64,000 nt of DNA from Olsenella sp. An270 (GTDB lineage: Bacteria > Actinomycetota > Coriobacteriia > Coriobacteriales > Atopobiaceae), in the NCBI RefSeq assembly GCF_002159735.1, contig NZ_NFJF01000001.1:1-64000 (forward strand), written 5' to 3'. Each line of letters begins with the position of its first letter. Positions within the stretch are counted from its first letter, which is position 1. Below the pieces are notes generated by a model. It did not search any database. It worked only from the letters and a program-made list of their open reading frames with translations, and was not told the origin of the DNA. Shown here in pieces: positions 1 through 60,581 of the stretch. The position numbers were made by a program, and so were the translations under genes.

Positions 1-320
1 CTCCGACGACGACCGCCCGCCCCGCCCGAGCGGGCTGTGAGCGTTCTTCTCGCCCGCCGGCTCTTCTCGTCCGATCTAGAAAGTGCCGTCCTTGTCATGG
101 GGGCTTCTAGAAATCGGGGGGCTTGTACGGCATGGCCGCCCCACCACGGTGCAACCCCGTCGATTCCTAGAAGAAAAGGCGACAAGGGCGAGAATAACCG
201 GATCGGGTTGGGACAACCCCGGGGATTCCTGGAGGCGCTCAGGACAAGAGCGCGAATTCCTAGACGGCCCAGTGACAACCCCGCCGAGTTTCGGATCGAG
301 TCGAGGCGGCCAGCACGGCG
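1..320. other. Intergenic region before the phospholipase C-like gene
   Basis: No gene is supported here. Bases 1-73 hold a GC-rich stretch with a small GCCCG-AGC-GGGC hairpin and one exact copy of the window-wide octamer TTCTCGCC (47-54). Bases 74-296 are the first 31-bp repeat array, described separately. The remaining bases run up to the stop codon of the minus-strand gene at 321. Confidence 0.8.
74..296. repeat. Inverted array 1 of a 31-bp-period repeat
   Basis: Repeat unit is about 23 bp: a TTCTAGAA-like box, then a core like TCGCCGCCCTTGTC, followed by about 8 variable bases. Two forward units end at 96 and 127. Five reverse units (GACAAGGGC... ending in a CCTAGAA-like box) start at 150, 181, 212, 243 and 274. 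Every step is exactly 31 bp. A 22-bp centre (128-149) separates the two halves, the same length as in the second array at 18891-19237. Several units are mutated (the one at 150 begins TGCAA instead of GACAA). The array lies directly beyond the 3' end of the minus-strand gene ending at 321. Function unknown. Confidence 0.85.
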
Positions 321-10989: not shown

Positions 10990-11131
10990 GGCCCGTGTCC
11001 TTCTCGCCATGAAATGGCCCTGAAGATGCAACCAAACCATGCCCCGCGCTTCACGTTGGCGCAACGGCTGTGAAACAATGGGCCCGTAGAGTAGTCGACC
11101 GTAAGCCACAACGCCGGGAGAAAGGGCGCAC

Positions 11132-13242: not shown

Positions 13243-13290
13243 AGGGCGCCCGGCACGCCGTGCGTCGCGTGCCGGGCGCCCTGTTCTTCT
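13243..13290 (+). terminator. glnN terminator
   Basis: A perfect 16-bp stem, AGGGCGCCCGGCACGC at 13243-13258 with its complement at 13267-13282, has an 8-nt loop and is followed by a short T-rich run (GTTCTTCT). It is preceded by TCGCAGCTCACAG, a string that also lies in the gap terminator. Confidence 0.85.
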
Positions 13291-13356
13291 CGCCCGGTCG
13301 CCGCGCCTCGCCGCGCGCCTGTTCTTCTCGCCCGACAGCCGCGCCTCGCCGCGCAC
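13281..13356. repeat. Tandem duplication of 38 bp
   Basis: Two adjacent 38-bp copies (13281-13318 and 13319-13356) differ at a few bases. Each starts CTGTTCTTCTCGCCCG and continues GCCGCGCCTCGCCGCGC. Each copy carries one exact TTCTCGCC octamer (13287 and 13325). The first copy overlaps the tail of the glnN terminator. Confidence 0.85.
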
Positions 13357-14492: not shown

Positions 14493-15698
14493 TTGAGTGA
14501 GATTCAGAACTCGTCCATCTTCGCGCTGGACGACATCTCCGACGAGGAGATGAGCAACCTCATCGACGGCACCGTGACCGACTTCGACGAGGGCGGTCTG
14601 GTTACCGGCACCGTCGTGAAGATCGAGCGCGACGAGGTCCTGCTTGACATCGGCTACAAGTCCGAGGGCGTCATCCCGTCCCGCGAGCTGTCCATCCGCA
14701 AGGACGTCAACCCCGCCGAGGTCGTCTCCATGGGCGAGGAGATCGAGGCGCTCGTCCTCCAGAAGGAGGACAAGGAGGGCCGTCTGGTCCTGTCCAAGAA
14801 GCGCGCCGAGTACGAGCGCGCCTGGAACGCCGTCGAGGAGAAGTTCAACTCCGGCGAGACCGTCGAGGGCGAGGTCATCGAGGTCGTCAAGGGCGGCCTG
14901 ATCCTCGACATCGGCCTGCGCGGCTTCCTGCCCGCCTCCCTCGTCGACCTCCGTCGCGTCAAGGACCTCAACGCCTACCTCGGCACCCGCATCGAGGCCC
15001 GCGTCATCGAGATGGACCGCAACCGCAACAACGTCGTCCTCTCCCGCCGCGTCGTCCTCGAGGAGGCCCGCAAGGCCGAGCGCCAGGAGATCCTCTCCAA
15101 GCTCCAGGTCGGCATGCGCCTCAAGGGCACCGTCTCCTCGATCGTCGACTTCGGCGCCTTCGTCGACCTCGGCGGCATCGACGGCCTGGTCCACATCTCC
15201 GAGCTCTCCTGGAACCACGTCAACCACCCCTCCGAGGTCGTCAAGGTCGGCCAGGAGGTCGAGGTCCAGGTGCTCGACGTCGACCTCAACCGCGAGCGCA
15301 TCTCCCTCGGTCTCAAGCAGACCACCGAGGACCCCTGGCGCTCCCTCGTCAAGAAGTACCCGATCGACGCCATCGTCGAGGGCACCGTCACCAAGCTCGT
15401 CACCTTTGGTGCGTTCGTCGACCTCGGCGAGGGCGTGGAGGGTCTCGTGCACATCTCCGAGATGGCCAAGACCCACGTCGACCAGCCGTCCCAGGTCTGC
15501 GCCGTGGGCGACACCGTCCAGGTGAAGGTCATGGAGATCGACCTCGACCGTCGTCGCATCTCCCTGTCCATGAAGGCCGCCGCCGAGACCCTCGGCACCG
15601 AGGTCGAGGTCAAGCCGCTCCCCGAGAGCGAGCAGGCCGAGGCTGAGGTCGAGGCCGAGCCCGAGGCCGTCGAGGCCGAGGAGACCGTCGAGGAGTAG
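14493..15698 (+). CDS. rpsA: Ribosomal protein S1
   Basis: A 401-residue S1 protein, which helps the 30S subunit bind mRNA. Four S1 (OB-fold) repeats are seen, beginning about residues 33, 120, 203 and 288; the last two carry the near-identical signatures VDFGAFVDLGGIDGLVHIS and VTFGAFVDLGEGVEGLVHIS. Four repeats are usual for Gram-positive lineages, compared with six in E. coli. The C-terminus is an acidic Glu-Ala tail. The start is TTG at 14493, the only start in frame that follows a ribosome-binding site (AAAGGGG) at a proper distance. Codon use is the most biased in the window, with C-ending codons throughout, as expected for high expression. Confidence 0.96.
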   Translation: MSEIQNSSIFALDDISDEEMSNLIDGTVTDFDEGGLVTGTVVKIERDEVLLDIGYKSEGVIPSRELSIRKDVNPAEVVSMGEEIEALVLQKEDKEGRLVLSKKRAEYERAWNAVEEKFNSGETVEGEVIEVVKGGLILDIGLRGFLPASLVDLRRVKDLNAYLGTRIEARVIEMDRNRNNVVLSRRVVLEEARKAERQEILSKLQVGMRLKGTVSSIVDFGAFVDLGGIDGLVHISELSWNHVNHPSEVVKVGQEVEVQVLDVDLNRERISLGLKQTTEDPWRSLVKKYPIDAIVEGTVTKLVTFGAFVDLGEGVEGLVHISEMAKTHVDQPSQVCAVGDTVQVKVMEIDLDRRRISLSMKAAAETLGTEVEVKPLPESEQAEAEVEAEPEAVEAEETVEE

Positions 15699-15722
15699 TC
15701 CTTCTCGCCAACGCGTCTGAGA

Positions 15723-15776: not shown

Positions 15777-15842
15777 CGAGACAGAGAAACGGCACAGAAG
15801 AGGCATCCCAGGAGGGCGATTCTGTGCCGTTTCTCTGTCTCG
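15777..15842. repeat. Perfect 23-bp inverted repeat after rpsA
   Basis: The arm 15777-15799 (beginning CGAGACAGAGAAACGG) is exactly inverted at 15820-15842, around a 20-bp centre. Pairing continues outward for a few bases with one mismatch. It lies after the rpsA terminator and has no T-run, so it is not a normal terminator. The right arm runs into a GGCGAGAAGGAC copy of the window-wide 12-mer. It may be an operator for the next gene or a structural repeat. Confidence 0.85.
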
Positions 15843-15921
15843 GCGAGAAGGACGGGCCATGGGGCGCTCGTCAGGCGATTTTGGGTATGTTAGAGACGTT
15901 GACCAACGAGAGGGGAGCGAC

Positions 15922-17472: not shown

Positions 17473-18264
17473 TTGGCGCGCGCGGGCGAGAGAGGTGCCG
17501 AGAAGGACGGGCGGCTCCGGACGTGGGCCGTCCGTCTCGCGTGCGTCGCCTTCTGGCTCGTGGTCTGGGAGCTCGGTGCGCGGGCGATCGACGCGCGCAT
17601 CATCCTCGTAGGCCCGCTCGAGGTGCTGGCCCGTCTCGCCCAGCTGGCGACGACCGGTGAGTTCTGGGCCTCGGTGGGCGTGTCGCTCGGGCGTATTGGC
17701 GTCGGGTTTCTTACCGCGGTCATCGCGGGGACGGCCCTCGCCGCGCTCGCGAGTCGCGTGACCGTGGTCCGCGAGCTGCTCGCCCCGGTGATGGGGGCCA
17801 TGAAGGCCGTGCCGGTGGCGTCGTTCGTGATCCTCGTGCTGCTGTGGGTCTCGTCGAGCTACCTCTCGGTCGTGATCGCGCTCGTCATGGCGCTGCCCAT
17901 CGTCTATACCAACGTGCTCGAGGGCATCCTCCAGACCGACCCGGGCCTGCTCGAGATGTGCGACGTCTTTGGTGTGCTCGGCTGGGATCGCGTGCGGCTC
18001 GTCTACGCCTCCCAGGTGCTGCCGTACTTCCGCGTCGCGGTGACGCTCGCGCTCGGCCTCGCCTGGAAGGCGGGCATCGCCGCCGAGGTGATCGGGCTTC
18101 CCGACTTCACGATCGGCGAGCACCTCTACGACGCCAAGGTCTATCTGGACACGCCGGACCTCTTTGCCTGGACGGTGGCGATCGTCGTCGTCTCCGTCAC
18201 GCTCGAGACGGTGGTCCGCCGTCTGCTCGACCGTGTCGTGGTGCGGTGGGAGGCGAGGCCATGA
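17473..18264 (+). CDS. ABC transporter permease
   Basis: A 263-residue inner-membrane permease of the SsuC/TauC type (MetI-like fold), with about six hydrophobic segments. The cytoplasmic EAA loop is recognisable in MCDVFGVLGWDRVRLVYASQVLPYF and ALGLAWKAGIAAEVIG. No ATG or GTG fits, so TTG at 17473, two bases after the binding-protein stop, is chosen; the ribosome-binding site is poor, which suggests translational coupling. The overlap with the next gene (ATGA) completes a three-gene operon. The substrate is unknown and depends on the binding protein. Confidence 0.86.
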   Translation: MARAGERGAEKDGRLRTWAVRLACVAFWLVVWELGARAIDARIILVGPLEVLARLAQLATTGEFWASVGVSLGRIGVGFLTAVIAGTALAALASRVTVVRELLAPVMGAMKAVPVASFVILVLLWVSSSYLSVVIALVMALPIVYTNVLEGILQTDPGLLEMCDVFGVLGWDRVRLVYASQVLPYFRVAVTLALGLAWKAGIAAEVIGLPDFTIGEHLYDAKVYLDTPDLFAWTVAIVVVSVTLETVVRRLLDRVVVRWEARP

Positions 18265-18884
18265 GCTGCGGGTTCTCGCTGACAAACGTCGAGAAGGGCT
18301 ACAGCGGCATCTCCGTTCTCACGGGAGTGACGGCGTGCTTCGAGTCTGGCCGCACCCACGTGCTGATGGGTCCCTCCGGCTCCGGCAAGACCACCTTGCT
18401 GCGTCTGCTCGCCGGCCTGGAGACGCCCGACGCGGGTGAGGTGGGGCGCTCGGGCGTCGAGCGTCTCGCCATGACGTTCCAGGAGGACCGCCTCTGCGAC
18501 AACCTCACGGTCACGGCCAACGTCCGCCTCCCGCACGCCCGTCTGCGCGGCGCGGAGCGTGCAGCGTTCCTCGAGCTCGAGCGTGAGGCGTGTGCGGCCG
18601 TGGGTCTGCCCTGCGACGCGCGGCCGGTCCGCGAGCTCTCCGGCGGCCAACGCCGACGCGTCTCGATCCTGCGGTGCGTCCTGGCCGACGCCGACGCGTT
18701 CCTGTTCGACGAGCCGCTCAAGGGCATGGACGAGAAGACCGTGGACGCCGTCATGGACTTCGTCCTCCCCCGCCTCGCTGGCCGCACGACCCTCTGGGTC
18801 ACCCACGACGAGCGCGAGCTCTCCCGCTTCGACGACCCCGTCCTCTGGCGCGTCGAGGGCGGCCGCGTCATCTCGTGCTCGTAG
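18261..18884 (+). CDS. ABC transporter ATP-binding protein
   Basis: A 207-residue ABC ATPase. Walker A is MGPSGSGKTTLLRLLAG (near residue 35), the Q-loop is in MTFQEDRLC, the signature is LSGGQRRRVSI, Walker B is ADAFLFDEPLKGMD and the H-loop is WVTHDEREL. It is shorter than the usual roughly 250-residue SsuB/TauB ATPases because the C-terminal tail is missing; all catalytic motifs are present. Its ATG overlaps the permease stop. Seven bases after its stop codon the large 31-bp repeat array begins. Confidence 0.9.
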   Translation: MSCGFSLTNVEKGYSGISVLTGVTACFESGRTHVLMGPSGSGKTTLLRLLAGLETPDAGEVGRSGVERLAMTFQEDRLCDNLTVTANVRLPHARLRGAERAAFLELEREACAAVGLPCDARPVRELSGGQRRRVSILRCVLADADAFLFDEPLKGMDEKTVDAVMDFVLPRLAGRTTLWVTHDERELSRFDDPVLWRVEGGRVISCS

Positions 18885-19296
18885 GAGCGTCTCCAGGAAT
18901 CGCCGCCCTTGTCCGCCTGCGATCCGGAAATCGCCGCCCTTGTCGCGACGCCTTCTAGAAACCGTCGCCCTTGTCGCCGGCCCTTCTAAGAATCGCCGCC
19001 CTTGTCCGGTGTCACTCTAAGAAAAGCCGTCCTTGTCATGAGGCGCTCTAAAAAATGCGGCCCTTGTCCGCGTCGTGACCGTTTCAACCGGACAAGGGCG
19101 GCGATTCTTAGAAGGGCCGGCGACAAGGGCAGCTATTCCTAGAACCCTTTGTGACAAGAGCGGCGATTGCTGGATCGCGGGCGGACAAGGACAGCGATCC
19201 TTGGAGTGCGTCCGGACAAGGGCGGCGAACTCTAGACGTCCCAACGGGCCGTCGCATGTGCGATGATGGGTTGAGGATCGGCGAGGGGAGCCTGGG
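18885..19296. other. 412-bp intergenic region with repeat array
   Basis: No gene is supported. Bases 18891-19237 are the second 31-bp repeat array, described separately. Only the last 60 bases lie outside it; they hold a possible extended -10 (TGTGCGATGAT near 19255-19265) and the GAGGGGAG ribosome-binding site of coaE. Confidence 0.8.
18891..19237. repeat. Inverted array 2 of a 31-bp-period repeat (6 + 5 units)
   Basis: Six forward units end in CTTGTC at 18913, 18944, 18975, 19006, 19037 and 19068. Five reverse units begin GACAAGG (or GACAAGA) at 19091, 19122, 19153, 19184 and 19215. Every step is exactly 31 bp, and a 22-bp centre (19069-19090) separates the halves. The best units read as a TTCTAAGAA or TTCTAGAA box joined to TCGCCGCCCTTGTC; the other 8 bases or so of each period vary freely. 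CTTGTC ends point toward the centre in both halves. The same unit, period and centre length occur at 74-296. This is not a CRISPR array: the spacers are too short and half the units are inverted. Confidence 0.93.
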
Positions 19297-19902
19297 TTGT
19301 ACGCGGTGTTTCTGGCAGGGGGGACGGCGTCGGGGAAGTCGACGGTCGCGCGCGAGCTGGAGCGGCTCGGGGCGTGGCGCATCGACCTCGACGAGCTCTC
19401 CCGCGCCGTGCTCGCGCCCGGGGAGCCCTGCGTGGCCGAGGTGTGCGCCGCGTTCGGCGACGACCTCGTCGACCCCGAGACCGGGATGCTCGACCGCGCC
19501 CTTCTCGCCCGACGCGCCTTTGCCGACGAGCCCTCCGCCGAGCTGCTCGAGAAGATCGAGCTCCCGCACATCCGCGCCATGCTCGTCCGCATGCTCACGT
19601 CCGGCATCTGCGGCCAGCGCGAGCCGGCGTGCTGCGTGGTGGAGGTTCCACTGCTCGACCGGGTGGAGTCGATGGTCGACCTCGCCGACGAGGTCGTGGT
19701 GGTGGCCTGCCCGCTGGAGGTGCGCCGCGAGCGGGCACGGGGTCGCGGCATGGACGTGGGGGACTTCGACCGACGCGTGGCGCGCCAGCCCTCCGACGAG
19801 TATCTGCGCTCGCATGCGACGACCGTGATCGACAACACGGGGGACGAGAAGGACCTGCTCGTGCGGGTCCGCGCCTGGTGGGACGCGCATGGCTGGGCGT
19901 AG
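19297..19902 (+). CDS. coaE: Dephospho-CoA kinase
   Basis: A 201-residue kinase for the last step of coenzyme A synthesis, the 3'-phosphorylation of dephospho-CoA. Walker A is FLAGGTASGKSTVAREL, at the extreme N-terminus as in other CoaE proteins; IDLDELSRAVLAPGEP matches the conserved D-x-D region for substrate binding, and VVEVPLL the Walker B-like strand. The start is TTG at 19297, with GAGGGGAGCC in front; no other start keeps the P-loop. It overlaps the following transglycosylase gene by 14 bp. Confidence 0.92.
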   Translation: MYAVFLAGGTASGKSTVARELERLGAWRIDLDELSRAVLAPGEPCVAEVCAAFGDDLVDPETGMLDRALLARRAFADEPSAELLEKIELPHIRAMLVRMLTSGICGQREPACCVVEVPLLDRVESMVDLADEVVVVACPLEVRRERARGRGMDVGDFDRRVARQPSDEYLRSHATTVIDNTGDEKDLLVRVRAWWDAHGWA

Positions 19903-27819: not shown

Positions 27820-27938
27820 GGCCTTCCTCTCGACGCGCCCCCTCGGGGCGAAGTTTGGCAACGTGTTGATTCTACCCGAGGCGCCCTCGGATGGTTCATA
27901 CTGGCGAGAAGAACGGGACGGCTGCGAGGGAGGCGCAC

Positions 27939-29072: not shown

Positions 29073-31958
<2,886 letters not shown>

Positions 31959-33956: not shown

Positions 33957-34185
33957 GTGCGTCTCCCTTCTCTCGCCAACGGGGTGCCGAGCGTAGCAGG
34001 GGAGGCGTCGGCGCTGTCTTGCACGTCCCTGACACCTAGCTGACGCCCCAGCTGAAGGGGTCGGGGACGACTGTCGATTCGACGATCTATCGGCATGAGG
34101 GTCCTTCTCGCCCGCAGGTGGTCCTTCGTGCGTTCGGCTCGCTCCTACGAGGCGTTTCCGTGGCGCGGTGCGTCTCGAGACCCAT

Positions 34186-53982: not shown

Positions 53983-54026
53983 CGCGCGGGCGTCCTTCTC
54001 GCCGCCCTGTCCTTCTCGCCCCAAAG

Positions 54027-60555: not shown

Positions 60556-60581
60556 GTCGCGGTCCTTCTCGCCCAACGCGT

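Follow-up and report, generated by a model that had tools for sequence, protein, structure and literature searches.

Mirrored arrays of a directional 22-bp site at helically phased steps in an Olsenella genome, and their possible role as platforms for an oligomerising DNA-binding protein

What keeps eleven diverged copies of a short site in exact register between two bacterial genes? The question is raised by the gap upstream of coaE in Olsenella sp. An270, within the 64-kb stretch of DNA analysed here (the window), for which a preliminary description made from the letters alone had claimed eleven repeat units at exact 31-bp steps, inverted around a 22-bp centre. All of these units and steps could be located, as eleven sites at 18892-19236, six on the minus strand and then five on the plus strand, with a 31-bp step throughout. 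The unit proposed there, 23 bp with a gap of about 8 bp, proved to be a real repeat that is better delimited as 22 bp with a 9-bp spacer. The features of the window to which we refer are the following.

43-54, minus strand: 12-mer GGCGAGAAGAAC next to the second array, an independent word of high copy number

75-295, no strand assigned: second array of the same family, with minus units starting at 75 and 106 and plus units at 150, 181, 212, 243 and 274

18261-18884, plus strand: upstream gene, ABC transporter ATPase (PF00005), ending with its stop codon 7 bp ahead of the array

18892-19068, minus strand: minus half of the array, six 22-bp units starting at 18892, 18923, 18954, 18985, 19016 and 19047, with 9-bp spacers

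19069-19090, no strand assigned: 22-bp array centre; the inner units stand 44 bp apart start to start, which is the modal centre distance of the genome

19091-19236, plus strand: plus half of the array, five 22-bp units starting at 19091, 19122, 19153, 19184 and 19215, with a 31-bp step

19297-19902, plus strand: downstream gene coaE, dephospho-CoA kinase (PF01121)

The plus-half consensus is GACAAGGGCGGCGATTCCTAGA (22 bp, 9-bp spacers), and scanning the window for it, at most three mismatches being allowed, returned eight matches, all of them units of the array at 18892-19236 (8 of its 11), where 100 dinucleotide shuffles gave an expectation of 0. The second array, which the earlier account had put at about 74-296, obeys the same rule, with two minus and five plus units at steps of 31 bp and 44 bp across the centre, start to start. 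Nor is the unit confined to these two places, an outcome that would have spoken against the idea of a selected geometry. A pattern of two units at a 31-bp step, with up to three mismatches, matched the 2.01-Mb genome (G000) 242 times and its backwards control 0 times, and from the matches listed we assembled at least 47 arrays with 361 units. The number of units varies, up to eleven per array, and the minus units come before the plus units in each of the 47 apart from two at contig ends, which show minus units only. Positions 1-5 (GACAA), 9 (C), 15-16 (TT) and 19-22 (TAGA) are conserved and the middle of the unit and the 9-bp spacer are variable, so that the unit is a directional, bipartite 22-bp site with the core GACAA-N3-C-N5-TT-N2-TAGA. 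Diverged units in two mirrored halves, instead of near-identical repeats in a single orientation, also bear out the earlier judgement that this is not a CRISPR.

All 47 arrays lie between genes, as called by a simple script of our own. The flanking genes are oriented ++ in 15 cases, +- in 12, -- in 9 and -+ in 5, with only one called neighbour for the remaining six; many arrays start just past stop codons, and in six instances a TAG inside the outermost unit ends the gene. We looked for even spacing of the arrays along the chromosome and saw none among 38 gaps, inter-array distances appearing random on the contigs (coefficient of variation 1.03, in a 14-contig assembly with origin and terminus unplaced). 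No partner gene emerged from the 275 genes lying up to 3.5 kb from an array: the family with most members had 17 (ABC ATPases in the ten members shown), and all others had four at most. Searches with blastn against phages and plasmids gave no match, and the family to which it belongs (motif I) had no match in IMG/VR. A single IMG/VR match for the related motif II described below contained one weak unit on re-scanning and was taken as chance. Six arrays lie within about 120 bp of contig ends (both ends of C1 and of C7, and one each on C9 and C10), for which reason the assembly seems to break at arrays.

The strictness of the spacing was measured in a non-circular way, by scoring strong units wherever they lay. 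Of 464 adjacent same-orientation pairs from six sets of loci, 444 had a step of 31 bp (G000, 245/257; G113, 55/59; G107, 101/104; G086, 24/25; L057, 7/7; G091, 12/12), and reversed sequence yielded no strong unit in G000 and one in G113. Only two neighbours were in plus-then-minus order, both in G107. Of 78 minus-to-plus centre distances, corrected by multiples of 31 where inner units were missing, 69 were 44 bp and four were 43 or 45 bp; the other five (33, 34 three times, and 55) lie about one helical turn off 44, so the exceptions are themselves roughly quantised. The proposal that the geometry is selected, with all sites on one face of the DNA, is thus well supported, since the step is fixed while the spacers vary, and the spacing statistics show the integer number of turns expected of a phased protein-binding array. 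Random spacing in relatives, which would have told against it, was absent among the carriers of the motif.

Motif I itself is patchily distributed, occurring in 5 of the 140 family genomes, which all belong to one genus (5 of its 31 members); a stricter pattern run over named genomes matched records labelled Olsenella, Atopobium and, once, Collinsella, and the closest relatives by CoaE include species without it. Olsenella strain An820 has motif I arrays as well, and G087, G098 and G110 are close relatives that lack the motif. One relative that lacks motif I, G087, carries arrays of the related motif II (GAGAA...GATTCCGGGAC). In 293 kb of this genome the steps were 41 bp (27), 31 bp (4) and 40 bp (1), and in 693 kb the minus-to-plus centres measured 44 bp (8), 54, 34, 33, 23 (2) and 85 (= 44 + 41), along with two overlapping matches at 3 bp and plus-to-minus neighbours at 7, 28 and 38 bp. 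When the exact motif II pattern was searched with steps of 29-43 bp left free, 29 neighbours were found in 4 of 140 genomes, 21 at 41 bp, six at 31 bp and one each at 30 and 39 bp. The grid also appears when no motif is given. A scan for three chained similar 20-mers at steps of 22-63 bp picked out 31 bp in G113 (11 loci in 400 kb) and 41 bp in G087 (nine loci in 293 kb). Apart from 62 (= 2 x 31), no other step outside the multiples of 3 had more than one locus; multiples of 3, which are what coding sequence yields, gave up to five. In twelve further genomes, sampled at 40-100 kb each and one at only 5.7 kb, there were three loci each at 41 bp in G106 and G109, one at 41 bp in G115 and one each at 31 bp in G041 and G106; eight of these twelve smaller samples had no three-copy chain at 31, 40, 41 or 42 bp, multiples of 3 aside.

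Further families gave the same picture, some of their pairs sharing spacers or sitting in duplicated stretches and hence not being independent. With the step free between 28 and 57 bp, family III had 15 pairs at 41 bp and 15 at 42 bp (n = 30, in 3 of 31 genomes) and family IV had 26 at 41, two at 42 and two at 52 bp (n = 30, likewise in 3 of 31). Family VI, from a genome of another genus (G041) and with a word found there only (1 of 31 genomes), had 84 of 92 pairs at 31 bp with the step free between 23 and 52 bp, the remainder being one each at 30, 32, 33, 41 and 52 bp and three at 42 bp. Short phased repeats of another family occur in G085 and G088. The scan seeds 'V G091', 'G087c', 'G115' and apparently 'G087d' were coding noise and were discarded. 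There are several motif families, even within one genome, with steps near 31 or 41 bp and exceptions mostly of about one helical turn, as one-face phasing predicts; different words on a common three- or four-turn grid are the strongest sign of a B-DNA grid.

In G041 we examined the geometry at 20 loci picked from the family VI match list (L237-L256), which show longer alternating blocks with mirror distances of 56 and 38 bp and partly repeated macro-units. Same-orientation steps (n = 215) were 31 bp (161), 30 (23), 32 (4), 41 (10), 42 (9), 40 (1), 34 (1) and 17 (6). Plus-to-minus distances (n = 43) were 56 bp (32), 39 (6), 23 (3) and 24 (2), the six 39s and six 17s together making 56, and minus-to-plus distances (n = 53) were 38 bp (43), 37 (6), 42, 67, 68 and 70. 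The two main mirror distances add up to 94 bp, or nine turns of 10.44 bp. The reversed sequence, as a control, yielded 29 units where the true one had 345, which means that some of the weak units are false, and 55 of 94 units lie in long open frames, compared with 74% of random positions, so that we make no intergenic claim for this genome.

We compared orthologous arrays at seven loci of G000 and G113, where the flanking proteins are 73-98% identical. Spacer identity was 0.35 against 0.32 for non-orthologous arrays, in a comparison that matched units according to their rank outwards from a centre set at 44, so that gain or loss of units would mask homologous spacers; unit core identity was 0.87 against 0.85, a value inflated by the restriction to phased units above 4 bits. 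With spacer identity near saturation and unit cores at 0.87, it seems that the units are kept in position or rewritten, and that the spacers change in sequence but not in length; a re-templating enzyme could be another source of conserved units with variable spacers. Direct alignment showed the spacers and the centre to be partly conserved at the window locus and little conserved at the others. Spacers alike at eight or more of their nine bases made up 13 of 660 pairs within arrays and 98 of 31,980 between arrays, which indicates that growth by duplication of units occurs and is uncommon.

Arrays are gained or lost, as two comparisons indicate. At the convergent junction C1:366125 there is an array in G000 and a different hairpin in G113; this was the one arrayless site examined closely for a target-site duplication, and the hairpin obscures the junction. 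At C1:67429 an array in G000 stands after a tRNA gene with a terminator of its own; there is no unit here in G087 and, in G113, an apparent single degenerate unit. We also considered whether arrays of different motif families keep the same positions and set this aside, as 3 of 8 G000 array gaps traced in G087 hold a G087 array compared with 4 of 28 control gaps (Fisher p = 0.17). The positions turn over, which gives no support to a role specific to any one locus. In relatives without the array at the window locus (L110, L111, L112 and L114), the gap upstream of coaE holds other palindromic repeats, of the GCGGGGCAACATACCCCATCTGCTC and GCGCGCCGACATACCCTC types.

Three other explanations have to be weighed against a protein-bound array, and two of them concern transcription. 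The preliminary description had offered, as its own alternative, a transcript folding in register as a segmented long hairpin, which might act in regulation, processing or termination. The window array taken alone invites this reading, for its predicted RNA fold is very stable (-231 kcal/mol, z = -17.6) and, in a register shifted by two units, three of its spacer pairs are 78% complementary on average. One of these pairs is perfectly complementary (AGGGCCGGC) and looks like an inverted duplication of one unit. The claim that spacers are unconserved needs correcting to this extent for the window array, where they are not wholly free. In a partner-pairing test on the 36 arrays whose centre distance is 44 bp (the other 11 of the 47 being left out; positions before spacer 4), mirrored units were no more complementary than units of other arrays (unit 1: 0.688 vs 0.692), mirrored spacers likewise (spacer 1: 0.288 vs 0.325), and the spacers showed no pairing of the kind seen in the window array; the outer four bases of the centre were slightly more complementary than shuffled ones (p = 0.0055, uncorrected). 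Compensatory changes between paired units, which the description had named as a sign of RNA, were not seen, and native arrays folded more stably than chimeras in only 21 of 34 cases (p = 0.48). A search of the 64-kb window against Rfam at gathering thresholds found tRNA only and left the array without a match, so there was no annotated RNA family to account for it, and steps of three and four B-DNA turns would be unexpected for an RNA helix. We therefore reject a selected RNA hairpin and regard an RNA element of any such kind as highly improbable. The second explanation is a roadblock formed by protein on the DNA: the bound array would stop RNA polymerase and act as a bidirectional terminator or as an insulator between transcription units. 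The many arrays directly after stop codons and the six genes that end in an outer unit point this way, as does an enrichment of convergent gene pairs (12 of 41 array gaps vs 22 of the 242 remaining adjacent pairs, Fisher p = 0.0009, against a background that includes within-operon pairs), and at C1:366125 a hairpin stands in G113 in place of the array. Terminator-like hairpins, however, were about equally frequent at gene ends that face an array (11 of 42) and at control ends (18 of 78; script of our own), so that arrays are not supported as substitutes for terminators. The array at C1:67429 follows a gene that already has its own terminator, and 47 arrays in 2 Mb would leave most transcription units without one. 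We consider a transcription boundary unlikely. As the earlier account had stated, the window array is not a terminator either, no hairpin with a T run being visible in it by eye.

A more serious competitor holds that the arrays are non-autonomous elements of the REP, BIME or MITE kind, amplified by a transposase that binds the unit, and that the geometry belongs to this enzyme and reflects no function of the host. The arrays resemble REPs, BIMEs and REPINs in being short, many-copy intergenic repeats whose families differ between relatives, and the patchy occurrence, the several motif families, some inside one genome, and the gain and loss at loci are all in keeping with selfish spread. A few arrays also appear to have been copied or moved. 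The centres of two C10 arrays are exactly inverted, and the two C9 arrays around a PTS operon in G000 share several near-identical windows. By eye, this operon is of the mannose-type PTS-like kind and lies between two similar arrays in both G091 (L072:6390-13493) and G000 (L073:5924-13903); all 11 of the unit pairs of G091 are in the two arrays that flank it, which suggests horizontal transfer of the PTS block, together with its arrays, into G091. Copying of whole arrays nonetheless looks rare, since among the 25 best 53-bp windows collinear sets occurred only in the two C9 arrays. Decaying copies should lose units and spacers alike, yet spacers look saturated and units persist, with the pairing caveats given above, and no strongly conserved base, such as would mark an outer boundary, is present in the 20-bp flanks of 36 arrays. 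REPs have been described as 20-40-bp palindromic repeats (PMC3733652); the units of the arrays differ in being directional and non-palindromic (the consensus GACAAGGGCGGCGATTCCTAGA is not self-complementary), in having a fixed helical step and a mirror centre, and in lacking an accompanying Y1 transposase. A search with PF01797 gave 0 matches in G000, an assembly that is 98.6% complete and could miss a gene, and Y1/RAYT transposases are absent from G085 and G088 as well, so that a RAYT-mediated REP is not supported for the motif I family. Of the 31 genus members, 28 carry Y1 (RAYT-type) transposase genes, up to six per genome, and the three without them are these same genomes. On balance we find dispersed selfish repeats a doubtful explanation, and the least improbable of the three.

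Our preferred explanation, which we think rather likely to be correct, is that a putative oligomerising DNA-binding protein uses the arrays as platforms on one face of the helix, with mirrored sites, at some 50 loci; the platform would probably serve bridging or chromosome architecture. A sequence-specific protein would bind each directional, bipartite site, and each bound copy would touch its neighbour three turns on (four turns in other families), so that all copies would stand on one face. Two cooperative runs, as a nucleoprotein filament or cluster, would then meet head to head at the centre, and the assembled complex could hold or bridge DNA in intergenic gaps, while the other motif families would be served by related proteins of drifting specificity with a similar three- or four-turn geometry. 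Motifs I and II share 44 bp as their commonest centre distance despite their different usual steps, a pattern that points to a constant head-to-head contact. We infer the protein and its cooperativity; that it bridges the two halves, as the preliminary description had imagined, is plausible, and bridging, architecture and insulation of transcription units are candidate roles.

It is tempting to go further and to regard the arrays as an undescribed class of chromosomal element, a phased dyad array, in which each motif would have its own protein polymerising from the mirror centre along one face, with a chromatin-like boundary or bridging function, the motif turning over fast while the geometry is kept; we put this forward tentatively, as a possibility somewhat short of an even chance. 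If the platform reading is right, the geometry by which a nucleoprotein complex assembles is written directly in the sequence; each genome, with its hundreds of sites, shows which spacings are allowed (three or four turns, and the mirror distances), and comparison could reveal the rules of assembly ahead of the protein itself. Olsenella and its relatives would then hold a new kind of chromosomal element whose natural variants of motif and step make a protein-DNA code testable.

Several known systems share part of this design. In sopC of the F plasmid and in the EBV family of repeats bound by EBNA1, tandem sites at about three to four helical turns assemble a large nucleoprotein complex, but these are single loci on a plasmid or episome, whereas the arrays occupy 47 chromosomal loci, are mirrored and differ in motif among relatives. 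The sites of parS, Noc, SlmA and MatP are dispersed over the chromosome and bound by one architectural protein, and are mostly single palindromes in contrast to the phased multi-site arrays. Transposon ends of the TnsB/MuA type contain several directional sites of about 22 bp in inverted ends, and two such ends joined would give a mirrored array; unlike them, the arrays vary in unit number, have no strongly conserved terminus and contain units that seem to outlast the similarity of the spacers. A precedent for integer-turn spacing is NrdR, which has been reported to bind best when the centres of its boxes lie a whole number of turns apart (PMC12051234), although NrdR sites consist of two boxes at ribonucleotide reductase genes, and the arrays are found in dozens, with many mirrored sites of other motifs and often away from promoters. 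A literature search, for which subscription papers were mostly outside its reach, found no description of such arrays, and the O. uli genome paper speaks of repeats, palindromes or CRISPR in a single place, a CRISPR count.

A separate word lies beside the second array. The 12-mer GGCGAGAAGRAC has 12 copies in the window compared with 0.05 expected (43-54, 10997-11008, 13283-13294, 13321-13332, 15698-15709, 15842-15853, 27903-27914, 30369-30380, 34101-34112, 53992-54003, 54009-54020 and 60562-60573), 11 of them between called genes, and most other segments of the genus that were scanned are likewise enriched between genes. It occurs 416 times in the genome compared with once in the backwards control, and at 40 to 855 copies per genome in the 31 genus members, and the three genomes of the genus g27 have 291 to 484. 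Its copy number and strand balance are like those of a DNA uptake sequence. The word is present in 4 of 36 array centres, two of which are inverted copies of each other.
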